Origin: Gemmatimonadota bacterium
GTDB lineage: Bacteria; Gemmatimonadota; Gemmatimonadetes; Longimicrobiales; Gaopeijiaceae
DNA length: 64,000 nucleotides
Assembly (NCBI GenBank): GCA_007121455.1
Contig: SKKN01000003.1
Span: 62,001 to 126,000, forward strand
Direction: 5' to 3'
Positions 17,776 through 26,263 of this stretch are shown in pieces; the stretch's first letter is position 1, and every line of letters begins with the position of its first letter. Position numbers and translations under genes: made by a program. A model generated the notes under the pieces. That model was not told the origin of the DNA, did no database searches, and worked only from the letters and a program-made list of their open reading frames with translations.

Positions 17776-17941
17776 ATCTCCACCCCACGGTGCGGGTTCG
17801 CGATCGGTGCGATCGGGAAGCTCCCCTCCACACAATACCGGATCGGAGCGCTCCACGGGGAGGGGGCCTGGATCGTGAAGCTTGCGGCAGCTCCTCGTGC
17901 AGGCGAGGGTGGCAGCGAAGAACCTGCCCAGGACGGCGAGC

Positions 17942-18220
17942 CTCGAAGGCTGTTGAAGAAGGGGAGTAGGGCCCGCGCAGGGGGCTTGCGTGTGTTCAGG
18001 CGAGGAACGACAACGAGTCGTAGCAGAGCTACGGCGAGGAGGAGAGACGATGGATCAACCATGCAATCCCCCTGCGCCCTTCGGGTTGGGGCGGCACGGG
18101 CCCGTATGCGTCGTTGCCACTCCTCCCCGATGCGCAAGGCATCGCGTCGTCGCGCCGCCTTGCCTCCGCACCCGTGGCGCTCCCAACGGGCCCTGCTCCC
18201 CTTCTTCAACAGCCTTCTAG
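17942..18220. repeat. Structured inverted-repeat element (MITE-like or structured RNA)
   Basis: Arms of 30 bases at 17946-17975 and 18187-18216 are complementary throughout, with one T opposite G that becomes a U-G pair in plus-strand RNA. Inside, GCGCAGGGGG and TTGC (17975-17989) pair with GCAA and CCCCCTGCGC (18063-18077). A second arm pairs GTTGGG and a near match (18084-18100) with 18171-18187, and carries the hairpin GCAAGGC (18134-18140) / GCCTTGC (18157-18163), itself enclosing CGCG-TCGT-CGCG. A small CGTAG/CTACG hairpin lies at 18019-18033. The element fills the kynA-thioesterase gap and its right edge touches the thioesterase ribosome-binding site (18219-18224). No transposase is present, and I found no second copy in the window. 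Confidence 0.8.
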
Positions 18221-18229
18221 GAGGAACGG

Positions 18230-18680: not shown

Positions 18681-20438
18681 TCAGCCCGCGGCTCCTGCGA
18701 GCTCGGACTCCTCCGGCACGGCACGGTGGGGGTACGCCAGCGCGAGATACTCCAGCATCATCCGTCGGGTATGGAAGTGGGAGCCATTGAAGGCGACCGC
18801 TCCACGCATCACGCGGGCCCAACCTTCCGGGTCGTCATGGAAGAGGGGAAGCACTACGCTCTCCAGCTTCTCGAGAAGCGCCTCGGCCTCCTGGTCGGAA
18901 TCGGACTCGTCCCGCCAGTCCTCGTCGATCGACCAACCGGTGAGACCTTCCGCGTGCCCTTCGATCCACCAGCCATCCAGGACGCTGAGGCAGGGGACTC
19001 CGTTCAGGGCCGCCTTCATCCCACTCGTTCCTGAGGCCTCGAGCGGCTTTCTCGGGTTGTTGAGCCAGAGGTCTGCTCCCGAGGTCAGGAGTCGCCCGAG
19101 CTCCATGTCGTAGTTTTCGAGGTACACCACCTCGACTCCAGCACCCGCCTCGGCCCCCGCCAAAATAATCCGCTGGATCATCTCCTTTCCCTTCGCGTCC
19201 CGTGGGTGCGCCTTCCCGGCGTAGAGGATCTGGAGCCCGCCCACCTCCCGCGACATGGCGGCGAGCCGGCCCGGGTCCGCCATCAGAAGATCTGCCCGCT
19301 TGTATGGGGTCGCCCGCCTCGCGAAGGCGATCGTAAAACGGTCTGCAGAGAGCTCCACTCCCGTCCGTCGCTGCACATGCTCCAGAAGTGCCTCCTTGGA
19401 GAGTCGATGGGCCGACCGGAACTCCTCGAGAGGGATCGTGATGGCCTGCCGGAGGAGAAAGGGATCGTTTCGCCACCCGGGAAGGTGTCGGTCGAACAGG
19501 GCCCGGAACCCATCACCCGTCCACGTCGCAGCGTGCACCCCGTTCGTGATCGCATGGATCTCCGCTCCGGGGAAGAGCTTCCGGGAGACCGCGCCATGGC
19601 GAGCTGCGACCCCATTCGTGAAACGGGAGAACTGTAGCGCGACATGGGTGAGGTTCACACCGTCGTCCATGACGCACTCGGCTGCTTCGAGCAGCGCGGC
19701 GCGCCGCTCACCGAGCACCGTTCGGACGAGGTCGAGCTCGAACTGATCGTGCCCGGCGGGGACCGGGGTGTGCGTGGTGAAGACGGTCCGCGCCCGAACG
19801 GCCGCCAGCCCTTCGGCGATGTCGACGGCGGCCGGCTCCCCCGCGATTCCCTCGAGCTCATCCTCCATCAGGGCGAGTGAGAGGAGCGCCGAATGCCCCT
19901 CGTTCATGTGATACGTCTCCAGACCATCGGCCTGGAGGGCGTTCAGGAGCTCCACACCCCCCAGGCCCAGCACCGTCTCCTGCATGAGGCGGTACCGCTG
20001 GTCTCCCCCGTAGAGGGAGTCGGTGATCCTGCGGTCCTCCTCGGTATTCTCTTCGAGGTCGGTGTCGAGGAGCAGAACGGGCACTTCATGTCCGGTGACC
20101 CCCTCCACCCGAAATTCCCAGGCCCGGATCAGAACCGGGCGCCCCTCGATCGTGATGCGGACTCGCGGCCCCACCTCGAGAAGTTCCTCTGCGGGATCCC
20201 ATGGGTCCGCCTGCTCCCGCTGAACTCCGTCTTCCCCGAGCGACTGCCGGAAGTACCCCTTACGATGCACCAGGGAGACGGCAACGAAGGGAAGCTCCAG
20301 GTCTGCCGCGGAGCGGATCGTGTCTCCGGCGAGGACGCCGAGTCCACCGCTGTACGTCGGAAGGTCGGAGCGAAGTCCGACCTCCATGGAGAAGTATGCG
20401 GTGCGCAGATCGAGGTGGTTCGGGGCCGTGGTGCTCAT
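18681..20438 (-). CDS. glgP: Alpha-glucan (glycogen) phosphorylase
   Basis: 585 residues, the short bacterial/archaeal GT35 form. It releases glucose-1-phosphate from alpha-1,4-glucans. Seen: TAYFSMEVGLRSDLPTYSGG near the N-terminus, YHMNEGHSAL, FTTHTPVPAGHD, and the PLP-binding segment EASGTSGMKAALNG. ATG 20438 (MSTTAPNHLDLRTAYFS) follows TTTGGAG; the frame runs further upstream but without family similarity. It is divergent from glgE and converges within 13 bases on the thioesterase gene. It would mobilise the polymer made by the GlgE route. Confidence 0.96.
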   Translation of the reverse strand: MSTTAPNHLDLRTAYFSMEVGLRSDLPTYSGGLGVLAGDTIRSAADLELPFVAVSLVHRKGYFRQSLGEDGVQREQADPWDPAEELLEVGPRVRITIEGRPVLIRAWEFRVEGVTGHEVPVLLLDTDLEENTEEDRRITDSLYGGDQRYRLMQETVLGLGGVELLNALQADGLETYHMNEGHSALLSLALMEDELEGIAGEPAAVDIAEGLAAVRARTVFTTHTPVPAGHDQFELDLVRTVLGERRAALLEAAECVMDDGVNLTHVALQFSRFTNGVAARHGAVSRKLFPGAEIHAITNGVHAATWTGDGFRALFDRHLPGWRNDPFLLRQAITIPLEEFRSAHRLSKEALLEHVQRRTGVELSADRFTIAFARRATPYKRADLLMADPGRLAAMSREVGGLQILYAGKAHPRDAKGKEMIQRIILAGAEAGAGVEVVYLENYDMELGRLLTSGADLWLNNPRKPLEASGTSGMKAALNGVPCLSVLDGWWIEGHAEGLTGWSIDEDWRDESDSDQEAEALLEKLESVVLPLFHDDPEGWARVMRGAVAFNGSHFHTRRMMLEYLALAYPHRAVPEESELAGAAG

Positions 20439-20731
20439 TGTCCACTCCAAATGGTTCGAAAAGAGGCACGAGCTCGAGTCCGGAAAGCGAAGGCGAATAG
20501 CTTCGCATGTTCTGGTCCCGACGTCCATCCTCACACAGCCCTCGCAAGGAGTTATCAGGGAGAATACCGTGTTGCCGGCGGCGATGGGGGGTTTGCGCCC
20601 CCCCGAGGACTCTTTCAACTTAGTAGCCCCGCCGCTGAGTCGCGTCGTCGTGTGCCCATGTCAGGGCCCGCCGTGACCGTGCCCGCGGCGGGTTCTCCCC
20701 GATCCTCGCACTCCGGCTGCCGTCCGGAACC
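20439..20731. other. Intergenic region between divergent glgP and glgE
   Basis: 293 bases that must hold the promoters of both the glgP gene and the glgE operon. The only structure I see is a six-base-pair G/C hairpin, GGGGGG (20586-20591) with CCCCCC (20598-20603), loop TTTGCG. I could not pick out convincing promoter hexamers. Confidence 0.5.
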
Positions 20732-22855
20732 ATGGAGAACAGGTTGAGCACCACTCCACGATCAGACGAAGCGAAGACCTCCACCCGCCCGCCACGTCGT
20801 AAGAGAAAATCCCGGACATTGCCGGATGAAGGCCGAAGGCGCGCGCAGATTGAAGCGGTGACCCCAGAGGTCGATGCCGGCCGGTTCCCGTCCAAGGGAA
20901 TCGTGGGGGACGAGCTTCGTGTGGAGGCCGACGTCTTCGCCGATGGACACGACCGGGTGGCGGCGGTGCTCGCCTATCAGAAGGTGGGTGCGCGGCGTTG
21001 GCGGGAGGTCGCCATGGAGTCGGGGCCGAACGACCGCTGGTCCGCGTCCTTCCCTCTGGAAGAGCTCGGACGCTACCGATTTACGGTCCTCGCCTGGGTC
21101 GACCCCTTGCTCACCTGGATCCGGGATCTGGAGAAATGGGTGGCGGCAGGCAGGGGGGAGGAGGTGGTCGTCGAGCTCCTGGCCGGAGTCGACCTCGTGG
21201 AGGCCACCGCCGAACGGGCCCGGCGGGGATCCAAGTCCGAAGCACGTTTCGCCGACAAGCTCCTGGACTGGTCGCGGCGCCTCCGGGAGGGATCCGAGGA
21301 TCCCGGGCTCCGGAAGGAGCCGCACCGCCTCGCGGAAAAGGGCGGGCCGCTGGACGGTGCTTTGGCCGCACTGGCCAACCGATTCCCGGACCGGGAGTTC
21401 GAGACGCGCTATCCCCGGGAGCTCGAGGTCGTCGTCGATCGACCCCTCGCGCGCTTCAGCGCGTGGTACGAGTTCTTTCCCCGTTCCACGGGGGATGATC
21501 CCACGCGCCACGGGACCTTCGGCGATGCAAAGCGAATGCTTCCGTACGTCCGGGAGATGGGGTTCGATGTGGTCTACCTCCCGCCGATCCATCCCGTCGG
21601 AGACACGAACCGGAAGGGGCGCAACAACAAGCGCACGGCAGAGCCGGGAGAGCCGGGTAGCCCCTGGGCCATCGGCTCCGACCGGGGCGGGCACACGGCG
21701 GTCCATCCCGAGCTCGGGTCCCTCGACGACTTTCGATCCTTTCGGAAGGCTGCGGAGAAGGAAGGGTTGGAGGTGGCGCTCGACGTGGCCTACCAATGCT
21801 CGCCCGACCATCCGTGGGTGAAGGAGCACCCCGAGTGGTTCCGACACCTCCCGGATGGCTCGATCCGGTACGCGGAGAATCCTCCGAAGAAATATGAGGA
21901 CATCTATCCAGTCGACTTCCAGACGGACGATTGGCCGGCCCTCTGGGAGGAGCTCAAAGGGGTTTTTTCCTTCTGGGCATCGGAGGGGGTTCGCGTCTTC
22001 CGGGTCGACAATCCGCATACCAAAGCGCTTGCCTTCTGGGAGTGGGCGATCGCTCAACTCAAGCGGGAGTACCCCGACCTCATCTTCCTTTCGGAGGCGT
22101 TTACCCGGCCGAAGATGATGTACCGGCTCGCAAAGCTCGGCTTCACGCAGTCGTACACCTATTTCGCCTGGCGAAATACGAAGTGGGAGCTCACGGAGTA
22201 CATGGAGGAGCTCGCGCACGGCCCGGCGTGCGATTACTTCCGCCCCAATTTCTGGCCGAATACGCCGGACATCCTCACCGAGGCCCTGCAGTCCGGAAAG
22301 CGCCCGACCTTCGTTACCCGGCTCGTTCTCGCGGCGACGATGTCATCGAACTATGGGATCTACGGGCCGGCCTTCGAGCTCATGGAACACCTGCCGCGCG
22401 AGCCTGGGAGCGAGGAGTATCTGGATTCGGAGAAGTACCAGATCCGGCACTGGGACCTCGCGCGGCCGGACAGCCTGAAGGACCTGATCGCACGGGTGAA
22501 CCGCATCCGGCGTGGGAATCCGGCTCTCCAGCGAAACGACACGATCCGCTTCCATCCGGTCGACAATGAAGCGATCGTCGCCTATTCCAAGCACGATCCC
22601 GACGTCGGAAACCGCATCCTCACCGTGGTGAGTCTCGATCCCGATCATACGCAGAGCGGCTGGGTGAACCTGGACCTCTCGGCGCTGGGAATGGAAATCG
22701 ATGAGCGGTTCACCGTGGAGGACTGTCTCGCCGGTGGGAGGTTCGTCTGGCAGGGCGCTCGGAACTTCGTCGACCTGAATCCGGAGATCTGTCCGGCGCA
22801 CGTCTTCCGGCTGGGTCGCGAGCTTCGCCCCCACCCCGAAATCGAGACTCCCTGA
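20732..22855 (+). CDS. glgE: Alpha-1,4-glucan:maltose-1-phosphate maltosyltransferase
   Basis: 707 residues, GH13 subfamily 3. It adds maltose units from maltose-1-phosphate to the non-reducing end of alpha-glucans. Seen: N-terminal beta-sandwich (about 40-160), EFFPRS and GFDVVYLPPIHPVG, the nucleophile Asp in VRVFRVDNPHTK, the acid Glu in FLSEAFTRPK, and GIYGPAFELME. The N-terminal 30 residues are Arg/Lys-rich and probably disordered. It heads a run with the treS-maltokinase gene nine bases downstream, so the enzyme that makes its substrate is co-expressed. Confidence 0.97.
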   Translation: MENRLSTTPRSDEAKTSTRPPRRKRKSRTLPDEGRRRAQIEAVTPEVDAGRFPSKGIVGDELRVEADVFADGHDRVAAVLAYQKVGARRWREVAMESGPNDRWSASFPLEELGRYRFTVLAWVDPLLTWIRDLEKWVAAGRGEEVVVELLAGVDLVEATAERARRGSKSEARFADKLLDWSRRLREGSEDPGLRKEPHRLAEKGGPLDGALAALANRFPDREFETRYPRELEVVVDRPLARFSAWYEFFPRSTGDDPTRHGTFGDAKRMLPYVREMGFDVVYLPPIHPVGDTNRKGRNNKRTAEPGEPGSPWAIGSDRGGHTAVHPELGSLDDFRSFRKAAEKEGLEVALDVAYQCSPDHPWVKEHPEWFRHLPDGSIRYAENPPKKYEDIYPVDFQTDDWPALWEELKGVFSFWASEGVRVFRVDNPHTKALAFWEWAIAQLKREYPDLIFLSEAFTRPKMMYRLAKLGFTQSYTYFAWRNTKWELTEYMEELAHGPACDYFRPNFWPNTPDILTEALQSGKRPTFVTRLVLAATMSSNYGIYGPAFELMEHLPREPGSEEYLDSEKYQIRHWDLARPDSLKDLIARVNRIRRGNPALQRNDTIRFHPVDNEAIVAYSKHDPDVGNRILTVVSLDPDHTQSGWVNLDLSALGMEIDERFTVEDCLAGGRFVWQGARNFVDLNPEICPAHVFRLGRELRPHPEIETP

Positions 22856-22864
22856 GGACCGCGC

Positions 22865-25800
22865 ATGCTCCCGACCGACTCCCTCGACCTCCCGCTCGAC
22901 GACGACCCGCTCTGGTACAAGGATGCGGTCATCTACGAGCTCCACGTCCGCTCCTTCTATGATTCCAACGAGGACGGGATCGGAGACTTCCGGGGACTCA
23001 CCAAGAAGCTCGACTACCTCGAGGAGTTGGGGGTCACCGCGATCTGGATCCTTCCCTTCTATCCATCCCCCTTGAGGGATGACGGATACGACATCGCGGA
23101 CTACCGGACGGTCAACCCGGACTACGGGACGCTCAGGCAGTTCCGCACGTTTCTTCGAGAGGCGCATCGCAGGGGACTGAGGGTCATCACGGAGCTCGTC
23201 ATCAACCACACCTCGGATCAGCATCCGTGGTTCCAGCGCGCGCGCAGAGCGAAGCCCGGCAGCGTCCACCGCGACTACTACGTCTGGAGCGACGACCCCG
23301 AGCGGTACGCCGACACGCGCATCATCTTCAAGGATTTCGAGCCGTCCAACTGGACCTGGGATCCGGTCGCGGAGGCGTACTACTGGCACCGCTTCTACCA
23401 CCACCAGCCCGACCTGAATTTCGACAGCCCGGCGGTGCACCAGGAGCTGCTCCGGATCATGGACTTCTGGCTGGAGATGGGCGTGGACGGCATGCGCCTC
23501 GACGCGATCCCCTATCTGTACCAGCGGGAGGGGACGAACTGCGAGAACCTCCCGGAGACACACGAGTTTCTGAAGAAGCTCCGAGCGCACGTGGACCGGA
23601 AGTTCTCCAACCGTATGCTCCTGGCGGAGGCGAATCAGTGGCCGGAGGATGCCGCGCAGTACTTCGGGGACGGGGACGAGTGCCACATGAATTTTCACTT
23701 CCCTCTCATGCCCCGCCTCTTCATGGCGGTCCGGATGGAAGATCGCTTCCCGATCGTCGACATCCTCGAACAGACGCCGCAGATCCCCGACTCCTGTCAG
23801 TGGGGACTCTTCCTCAGGAATCACGACGAGCTCACGCTCGAGATGGTCACCGATGAAGAGCGGGACTACATGTACCGGGTCTATGCCGACGATCCGACGG
23901 CCCGGATTAACCTCGGCATCCGCCGCCGGCTCGCTCCACTCCTGAACAACAATCGGCGGAAGATCGAGCTGCTGAACTCCCTCCTCATGTCGCTGCCCGG
24001 CACGCCGGTTCTGTACTACGGGGACGAGATCGGGATGGGCGACAACTTCTATCTCGGCGACCGGAATGGTGTGCGGACGCCGATGCAATGGAGTGGGGAC
24101 CGGAATGCGGGCTTCTCGGCGGCGAATCCGCAGAAGCTCTTCCTTCCGGTGATCATCGACCCGGAATACCATTCGGAATCGGTGAATGTCGAAGCGCAGC
24201 ATCGAAACGCGAGCTCGCTGCTCTGGTGGATGCGGCGCCTCATCGCGCTTCGCAAACAGCATCCGGCCTTCGGACGCGGTACCTTCGAATGGGTGGAGCA
24301 CGACACCCCGAAGGTGGTTGCGTTCATCCGGCGGCACGAGGGAGACGCGGTGCTCGTCGTCGCCAACCTCTCCCGCTTCTCGCAGCCGGTTGCACTCGAC
24401 CTCTCCGACTTCACGGGTCATTTGCCGCTCGAACTCTTCGGGCGAAGCCACTTTCCCGAGGTCACGGACACCGCGTACCCGATGACGCTGGCTCCGCACG
24501 GTTTCTTCTGGTTCGTCCTCGAGCCCGAGGAGGAGGCGGAAGCGCGACTCGAGATCCGGACGGGTGCCGGAAGGGGACCGGATGAGATGCCGGAGCTCCG
24601 CCCCCGGCAGCGGTGGACGGAGGTTCTGGAGGGCCGGCGCCGAAAGCGGCTCGAGGAGCGACTGGTCGAGTACATTCGCAGGCAGCGGTGGTTCGCCGGA
24701 AAGGGCCGCGAGATCAAGGGAGGTCGCGTAGAGGAGGTGGTCCCGGTTTCCCTGAACGGGAGCGAGGCTCGGATCATCGTCGTCCTCATGGACTATGTGG
24801 ACCACGATCCGAGCCGCTACCTCGTTCCCGTTGCGTACTCCGCTGGCGAAGCCGCAGAGGCGATCTGGGAGGAACACCCCGAAATGGTCATCTGCCGCGT
24901 CTCGGTGGGGACGGAGCACGGGATCCTCTACGATTCCCTGGCGGATGCTCGCTTTCCCCGCGCACTCCTGGAGGTGATCGCCCGCGGGTCGGAGCTCGCC
25001 GGGGAGCTCCGGGTGCTGGCGGGCTCCTCCCACCGATCTCGGAAGGAGCTCCTCGGAGACGATCCAGCGGCGCTGGAGCCGACTCTGGGGAGGGCGGAGC
25101 AGAGCAACTCCTCCGTTCGCTTCGGTACGCGCTGGATCCTCAAGCTTTTCCGCCGGGTAGAGGCGGGCGTGAGCCAGGACGTGGAGGTCGGGGAGTTCCT
25201 CCGACAATCCAAGTTCCCACACACTCCGGAGCTCGTCGGCGTTCTGGAGTTCCGGAGGGATGAGCGGGTGACCGCGACGGCGGCGGTCCTGCACGAGTTC
25301 GTCCCGAACCAGGGGGACGCCTGGGAGCACTCGCTCGACTCGCTGGGCCAGTTCTTCGAAAGCGCACTCGCCTCCGAAGATTATCCGGAGACCCTCCCGA
25401 TGCCGACCGACGGGTTTCTCGAGACGGCGATGCGGCATGTCGACCGTGCGGAGGAGCTCCCCCAATCCGTTCGACGTGTCGTGGGTCCGTATCTGGGATC
25501 GGCCCGCACCCTCGGTGAGCGGACCGGGGATCTGCATCGCACCCTCGCCGCCCGCCCCGAGGTGGAGGCCTTCCGGCCGGAAGCGTTCAGCACGCTCTAT
25601 CAACGCTCGTTGTACCAATCCATGCGGAACCTCCTCGGCACGAGTCTGGACCGGCTGGGCCGCCGTGCCTACCGGCTCGAGGAGGAGGAGAGGGGGATCG
25701 CGCGGCGGGTTCTGGAGCTGCGCCCAGGCATTCTGGATCGTTTTCGGGCACTCCTCCACGGAAAGCTCGAGGGGCGCCGGATCCGGTGCCACGGCGATTA

Positions 25801-26263
25801 TCACCTCGGCCAGGTCCTCTTCACGGGAAAGGACTTCCAGATCATCGACTTCGAAGGTGAGCCGGACCGGCCGCTCAGTGAGCGGAGGCTCAAGCGGTCT
25901 CCGCTGAGAGACGTGGCGGGAATGCTCCGGTCGTTCGACTACGCGTCGCGAACGGTACACCGCTCCCTTCCGGAGCTTGGCCTCACGACGGATACGCGCG
26001 CAGAGCCGGCAGTCGCATGCTGGCGCAGGCTCTGGACGGAATGGGTCTCGGTGGAGTTTCTCGCCGGGTACCTCGGGGTGGTGGAAGGGACGAGGCTTCT
26101 GCCGGAGGACCCGGCGGGGCGCCGGCTCTTGTTGGATCTCTTCCTGCTCGAAAAGGCGCTCTACGAGTTGGGCTACGAGTTGAACAATCGCCCGGCATGG
26201 GCACGTTTGCCCCTGGAGGGGATTCTTTCACTGATGGAAGCGGGAGAGGAGGGAAGTGGTTGA
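22865..26263 (+). CDS. treS: Trehalose synthase / maltokinase fusion
   Basis: 1132 residues. The N-terminal 550 or so are GH13 trehalose synthase, interconverting trehalose and maltose: WYKDAVIYELHVRSF, nucleophile Asp in GVDGMRLDAIPYL, acid Glu in LLAEANQWPEDA, RNHDELTLEMV. The C-terminal 450 are a maltokinase (Mak/Pep2): QRWFAGKGREIKG, the lysine strand WILKLFRR, and the kinase catalytic site CHGDYHLGQVL followed by IIDFEGEP. The fusion channels maltose straight to maltose-1-phosphate for GlgE. Its stop overlaps the malQ GTG start by eight bases. Confidence 0.97.
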   Translation: MLPTDSLDLPLDDDPLWYKDAVIYELHVRSFYDSNEDGIGDFRGLTKKLDYLEELGVTAIWILPFYPSPLRDDGYDIADYRTVNPDYGTLRQFRTFLREAHRRGLRVITELVINHTSDQHPWFQRARRAKPGSVHRDYYVWSDDPERYADTRIIFKDFEPSNWTWDPVAEAYYWHRFYHHQPDLNFDSPAVHQELLRIMDFWLEMGVDGMRLDAIPYLYQREGTNCENLPETHEFLKKLRAHVDRKFSNRMLLAEANQWPEDAAQYFGDGDECHMNFHFPLMPRLFMAVRMEDRFPIVDILEQTPQIPDSCQWGLFLRNHDELTLEMVTDEERDYMYRVYADDPTARINLGIRRRLAPLLNNNRRKIELLNSLLMSLPGTPVLYYGDEIGMGDNFYLGDRNGVRTPMQWSGDRNAGFSAANPQKLFLPVIIDPEYHSESVNVEAQHRNASSLLWWMRRLIALRKQHPAFGRGTFEWVEHDTPKVVAFIRRHEGDAVLVVANLSRFSQPVALDLSDFTGHLPLELFGRSHFPEVTDTAYPMTLAPHGFFWFVLEPEEEAEARLEIRTGAGRGPDEMPELRPRQRWTEVLEGRRRKRLEERLVEYIRRQRWFAGKGREIKGGRVEEVVPVSLNGSEARIIVVLMDYVDHDPSRYLVPVAYSAGEAAEAIWEEHPEMVICRVSVGTEHGILYDSLADARFPRALLEVIARGSELAGELRVLAGSSHRSRKELLGDDPAALEPTLGRAEQSNSSVRFGTRWILKLFRRVEAGVSQDVEVGEFLRQSKFPHTPELVGVLEFRRDERVTATAAVLHEFVPNQGDAWEHSLDSLGQFFESALASEDYPETLPMPTDGFLETAMRHVDRAEELPQSVRRVVGPYLGSARTLGERTGDLHRTLAARPEVEAFRPEAFSTLYQRSLYQSMRNLLGTSLDRLGRRAYRLEEEERGIARRVLELRPGILDRFRALLHGKLEGRRIRCHGDYHLGQVLFTGKDFQIIDFEGEPDRPLSERRLKRSPLRDVAGMLRSFDYASRTVHRSLPELGLTTDTRAEPAVACWRRLWTEWVSVEFLAGYLGVVEGTRLLPEDPAGRRLLLDLFLLEKALYELGYELNNRPAWARLPLEGILSLMEAGEEGSG

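Follow-up and report, generated by a model that had tools for sequence, protein, structure and literature searches.

A dispersed gene-less element of Gemmatimonadota with a covarying two-arm body and exchanged terminal repeats

Bacterial MITEs are commonly regarded as dead ends, derived by deletion from a single insertion sequence (IS), and the interior of an ordinary MITE resembles its parent IS. The bcr1-type repeats of Bacillus cereus are mobile, duplicate their target, and have a conserved secondary structure, like the element described here. TIMEs, Tn3-derived inverted-repeat miniature elements, are non-autonomous and moved in trans (PMC4133298), and ISPse1, a published member of the IS1182 family, has ends of 16 bp and duplicates 4 bp of its target (PMC3281130). 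Our literature searches found no paper on MITEs in Gemmatimonadota, and those on IS1182 with MITEs or CTAG returned nothing about the element reported here. This element lies upstream of a thioesterase gene in the window, the 64,000-nucleotide stretch of Gemmatimonadota DNA that was analyzed, and is very probably a MITE, a non-autonomous DNA transposon without genes that IS1182-family DDE transposases mobilize in trans.

The element at the thioesterase locus

The initial annotation described positions 17942-18220 as a folded inverted-repeat element, and the structure is borne out far beyond chance. An inverted-repeat search of the window finds 35-nt outer arms (17941-17975 and 18187-18221; 94% complementary), a nested arm at 17975-17992 and 18060-18077, and a second arm at 18086-18187; T17967 opposite G18195 is the sole mismatch within the 30-nt outer arms. 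The plus-strand RNA fold is -171.5 kcal/mol, compared with -117.4 +/- 5.2 for shuffled sequences (z -10.5, with 0 of 200 shuffles as good), and the minus strand of 17942-18220 is nearly equal in folding (z -9.4 against shuffles). The borders required correction, as the annotated interval includes the 4-bp target-site copies (CTCG and CTAG); the element itself spans the 271 bp between them, 17946-18216 (Table 1), and its terminal inverted repeats are identical (16 of 16). The right edge does touch the AGGAGG of the thioesterase as annotated, with the CTAG running into it. The ORFs overlapping the element resemble open-frame artefacts of high GC, and it has no coding gene.

Table 1. Parts of the element at the thioesterase locus (window positions)
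Feature	Position	Strand	Basis or remark
Target-site copy on the left, CTCG, differing from CTAG at one base	17942-17945		Other copies have CTAG/TTAG on both sides
Left 16-bp terminal inverted repeat, class A, AAGGCTGTTGAAGAAG	17946-17961	+	Identical to right end; of the same type as the IS1182-family IS ends in L077 and L243
Outer stem, inner part, holds T17967	17962-17975		Pairs with 18187-18200
Arm I, hairpin module	17976-18076	+	Covariance model R1, 106.8 bits; pair counts
Arm I tandem G.A motif	18008-18017 / 18035-18044	+	One G.A is A.A in the window copy
Central mini-hairpin CCCTTCGGG	18077-18085		Alignment; a hairpin of ~35-40 nt instead in many relatives
Arm II, inverted second copy of the hairpin module	18086-18187	-	R1 match 18085-18187, minus strand, E 3.9e-8
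Arm II G.A motif	about 18118-18128 / 18144-18153	-	Pair counts
Outer stem, inner part, right side, holds G18195	18188-18200		Inverted-repeat search; alignment
Right 16-bp terminal inverted repeat, class A	18201-18216	-	Identical to left end
Right target-site copy CTAG	18217-18220		Overlaps the thioesterase ribosome-binding site (CTAGGAGG)

Such stable folding ahead of a ribosome-binding site could signify a riboswitch-like cis-regulatory RNA leader of the thioesterase gene, and a structured leader was one of the two readings initially offered; it is now highly improbable. A conserved leader is largely refuted because the related genome G001 has the same divergent tryptophan dioxygenase (TDO) and thioesterase genes without the element between them, its neighboring gene being recognized from reading the sequence. 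The region upstream of the G015 thioesterase orthologue also has no element, and copies elsewhere are intergenic, beside unrelated genes and in every orientation. Moreover, folding is nearly as good on the minus strand, Rfam gave no covariance-model match up to E 5, and a promoter/terminator scan of the element found neither a promoter-like site nor anything else. Gene orientation around copies shows no significant bias (15 forward and 8 backward among tandem cases, with rough gene calls). Comparison of these loci shows the insertion at this locus to be lineage-specific, and the copy here probably has no role beyond that of a bystander, making the upstream region of the thioesterase longer. 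We note that the neighboring genes (18681-26263 in the window) look like a glycogen/trehalose cluster; the phosphorylase matches Pfam PF00343, and by eye we take further genes in this region to code for a GlgE-like maltosyltransferase and a trehalose synthase-maltokinase fusion.

Dispersal, target sites, and exchange of ends

The other initial reading, a small MITE-like element spread through the genome, is supported by dispersed copies, a CTAG target, empty sites, and IS1182-like ends. A DNA search finds copies in 17 of 39 related genomes, often with more than 10 per genome; many are at contig ends, as expected of a repeat that breaks assemblies, and all of the genomes compared are drafts. 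The genome that includes the window has this one full copy together with one or two contig-end pieces that have both arms (contigs C55 and C7). At the end of C55 (L007 4146-4435) and the start of C7 (L008 1-288) the contigs stop inside a second type of the element, of nearly the same sequence in both, with the assembly breaking at the palindrome. Scanning 84,980 species with a degenerate arm I pattern yielded 34 loci, every one in Gemmatimonadota, and an arm I covariance model, run on 298 genomes of this phylum, matched 36, most of them in the element's own family and with a patchy distribution.

Full copies span about 208 to 430 bp. Small GC-rich hairpins of the form GACC-stem-GGTGCC are present at several fixed sites inside elements, in both orientations, with copies growing to 430 bp; they are seen in L181-L200 (all G019), L007 (4196-4224), L008 (210-238), L053, L060, L074, L110, and L119. 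G019 has 43 of them, compared with 6 for a control pattern, and nearly all are within these elements, for which reason an independent REP-like family was rejected.

Most of the 53 distinct full copies have CTAG or TTAG at both start and end; at the window locus the duplication is imperfect, with CTCG on the left and CTAG on the right. Empty sites were sought in related genomes with queries in which one CTAG linked the two flanks of a G019 copy (eight copies in all), and uninterrupted counterparts were found in G143, G003, and G013, holding a single target copy where the alignment is clean. The clearest is at L048, which reads AAGCCAG-TTAA-GTC in G003 and AAGCCGC-TTAG-[element]-CTAG-GTC in G019; this is the main site at which the 4-bp duplication is both exact and clean, and some other empty sites differ by small indels. 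The class B element at L048 (1445-1752) lies within a gene, judged by eye to be an integrase-type transposase, that is uninterrupted in G003 and G013.

The same genome as the window carries an IS remnant (L077 1255-2426) flanked by CTAG and CTAA, with ends AAGGCTGTTGAAAAAA and AAGGCTGTTGAAGAAC, the left of which agrees with the class A end at 14 of 16 bases. Its truncated transposase matches NF033551 (IS1182 family, E 3e-53), and a G015 protein (L242) with 87% identity to this remnant over 233 aa scores above the curated NF033551 cut-off. A 1.6-kb IS in G032 (L243) has CTAG on both sides, ends AAGTCTGTTGAAAATC and AAATCTGTTGAAAAAT, and a full-length transposase ORF of 492 aa that matches NF033551 with E 2e-79, although its score is 2.5 bits below the curated cut-off. 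Ends and CTAG target were matched to a complete IS for class A only; no whole partner IS was found for classes B, C, D, and F, of which B, C, and D have only contig-end fragments in these draft assemblies, and G025, which is rich in class B copies, gave no IS1182 match. The element is thus dispersed, inserts at CTAG-like sites with a 4-bp duplication, and has ends common to IS1182-family IS elements. Because ends and target are shared with IS1182 elements, we infer that it is mobilized in trans by an IS1182 transposase. A resident transposase of this type would bind the 16-bp ends, excise or copy the element, and insert it at CTAG.

We also considered mobilization as a REP/REPIN by a RAYT (Y1) transposase, as the initial annotation had raised, given the element's REPIN-like pair of inverted, imperfect hairpins and the tetranucleotide (CTAG) at its borders. 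A matching RAYT gene was sought, but PF01797 is absent from the element's own genome and from most element-rich genomes (6 of 7 others tested, with only a partial match in the seventh). With the element being ~280 nt long, its 16-bp ends matching IS1182, and its 4-bp target duplicated, this assignment is scarcely credible.

The outer 16 bp of the copies fall into classes A (shown in Table 1), B (CAGGTCGCTGAAAAAG), C (AAGGGTGATCGGAAAG), and D (GGAAGCTCTGCACAAG), with a further class F (CAGTCTGATCGGAAAG) and a single E-like one, giving at least five classes around the same body. Left and right ends within a copy differ by a mean of 1.2 mismatches of 16 (41 copies), compared with 5.2 between copies. 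One copy (L109 330-639) has a left E-like end (GAGCCTGTCC type) and a right D end (GGAAGCTCTGCACAGG), and is perhaps an end-exchange intermediate.

A body tree was built without the ends, and changes were counted on supported branches; at least five end changes are forced for class B, at least three for class C, and at least eight for class A. End classes change even between near-identical bodies of one genome: two G019 copies, L027 (class A) and L048 (class B), are 99% identical in arm I and 94% in arm II, but only 69% in their ends. The 16-bp ends have therefore been exchanged repeatedly around a body that predates them, one folded core being found with all of these classes. Recombination among bodies could contribute, and in both cases ends and bodies behave as exchangeable modules. 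The element seems to switch transposase partners while its folded core is kept; once another IS1182-type element is activated, those copies that acquire its ends would take over.

Covariation and strand use in the folded body

A single covarying hairpin module, present twice in inverted orientation, makes up the body, with arms of ~100 nt each. Among 41 copies, 94.9% of cells are paired over 78 base pairs, and 70 of the 78 pairs have compensatory changes on both sides; there are 545 double-changed cells, compared with 148 when shuffled and 63 to 89 in slid controls. Of the 35 arm II sequences, 30 match the arm I profile at E < 0.01 when reverse-complemented, and none does so in the forward or merely reversed controls. 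In the alignment, some copies have an arm I of the arm II type.

Four tandem G.A/A.G steps occur in arm I, with each of their positions kept in 23 to 30 of 30 sequences, and the Watson-Crick pairs between these steps covary (e.g., C-G 20, G-C 7, and T-A 2). In arm II the minus strand has the best-kept G.A step (34 and 23 of 35), and tandem G.A mismatches are thus conserved on the strand reading inward from each end.

Strand preference was assessed from wobble-type cells: a helix of RNA or single-stranded DNA predicts more G.T than A.C on its working strand, whereas double-stranded DNA predicts equal numbers. The overall G.T:A.C ratio of 158:73 was rejected as a sign of RNA selection, as three near-fixed columns dominate it and it is about even without them, and the cells were recounted by arm and by strand. 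The outer stem has 31 G.T and 32 A.C cells with its one fixed T.G column left out, and the earlier suggestion that the T-G wobble shows the RNA form to matter therefore fails in the form given. In four copies from one genome (L015, L030, L053, and L057 of G003) this near-fixed T.G is reversed to C.A, as if the ends were swapped. There is a weaker single-strand signal inside the arms, on opposite strands for arm I (plus, 22 versus 18) and arm II (minus, 38 versus 17). Taken together as column-by-genome events, the arms give 54 versus 30 (p about 0.01, uncorrected for relatedness of copies). Such a bias would fit a model in which each arm functions on whichever strand reads inward from that arm's end, although it is suggestive only because the copies are related.

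It is quite conceivable, if short of probable, that the compensatory changes are unselected, arising by template switching in a long palindrome or by arm conversion, and that the body is a passive relic. The absence of wobble bias in the outer stem, the about equal folding of both strands, and the modest size of the arm bias all agree with this. However, the G.A steps stay mismatched while the intervening pair switches among C-G, G-C, and T-A, which argues against palindrome repair because correction would remove the mismatches, and the bodies outlast the exchange of ends.

Since G.A mismatches are kept on the inward strand and G.T exceeds A.C there, the arms may instead work as single-strand folds, either as cruciform or single-stranded DNA in replication or transposition, or as RNA. 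A transcribed structured RNA borne by the element would account for the conserved G.A steps and UUCG-type loop, which are RNA-like, and for the G.T excess within the arms. Yet the arms want opposite strands and therefore no single transcript would have both motifs, and the promoter scan found none, making this unlikely; the two-fold symmetry favors a DNA-level role over a one-strand RNA. We tentatively suggest that the element could be a transposase-hopping parasite with a two-arm core selected as single strands, in which the tandem G.A hairpins, arranged in two-fold symmetry, would be bound by a protein of the host or of the element, and that it could persist in Gemmatimonadota by adopting, time after time, the 16-bp ends of active CTAG-targeting transposases.

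Relation to known mobile elements

Like REP/REPIN elements with their RAYTs, the element has two inverted imperfect hairpins, but it is much longer, has DDE-type ends with target duplication, and resides in a genome with no Y1 transposase. The bcr1-type repeats differ from it in sequence and phylum, and we know of no end exchange among them. TIMEs are similarly non-autonomous miniature elements moved in trans, but have Tn3-family rather than IS1182/CTAG ends (PMC4133298). In form the element resembles the MITEs of bacterial IS elements (here IS1182), which are short, gene-less, and dispersed, with ends and a 4-bp target duplication in common with an autonomous element. The element described here differs from ordinary MITEs in its conserved, covarying two-arm body and in the several end classes found on that one body, and offers a natural example in which partner switches by a parasite of parasites can be counted.
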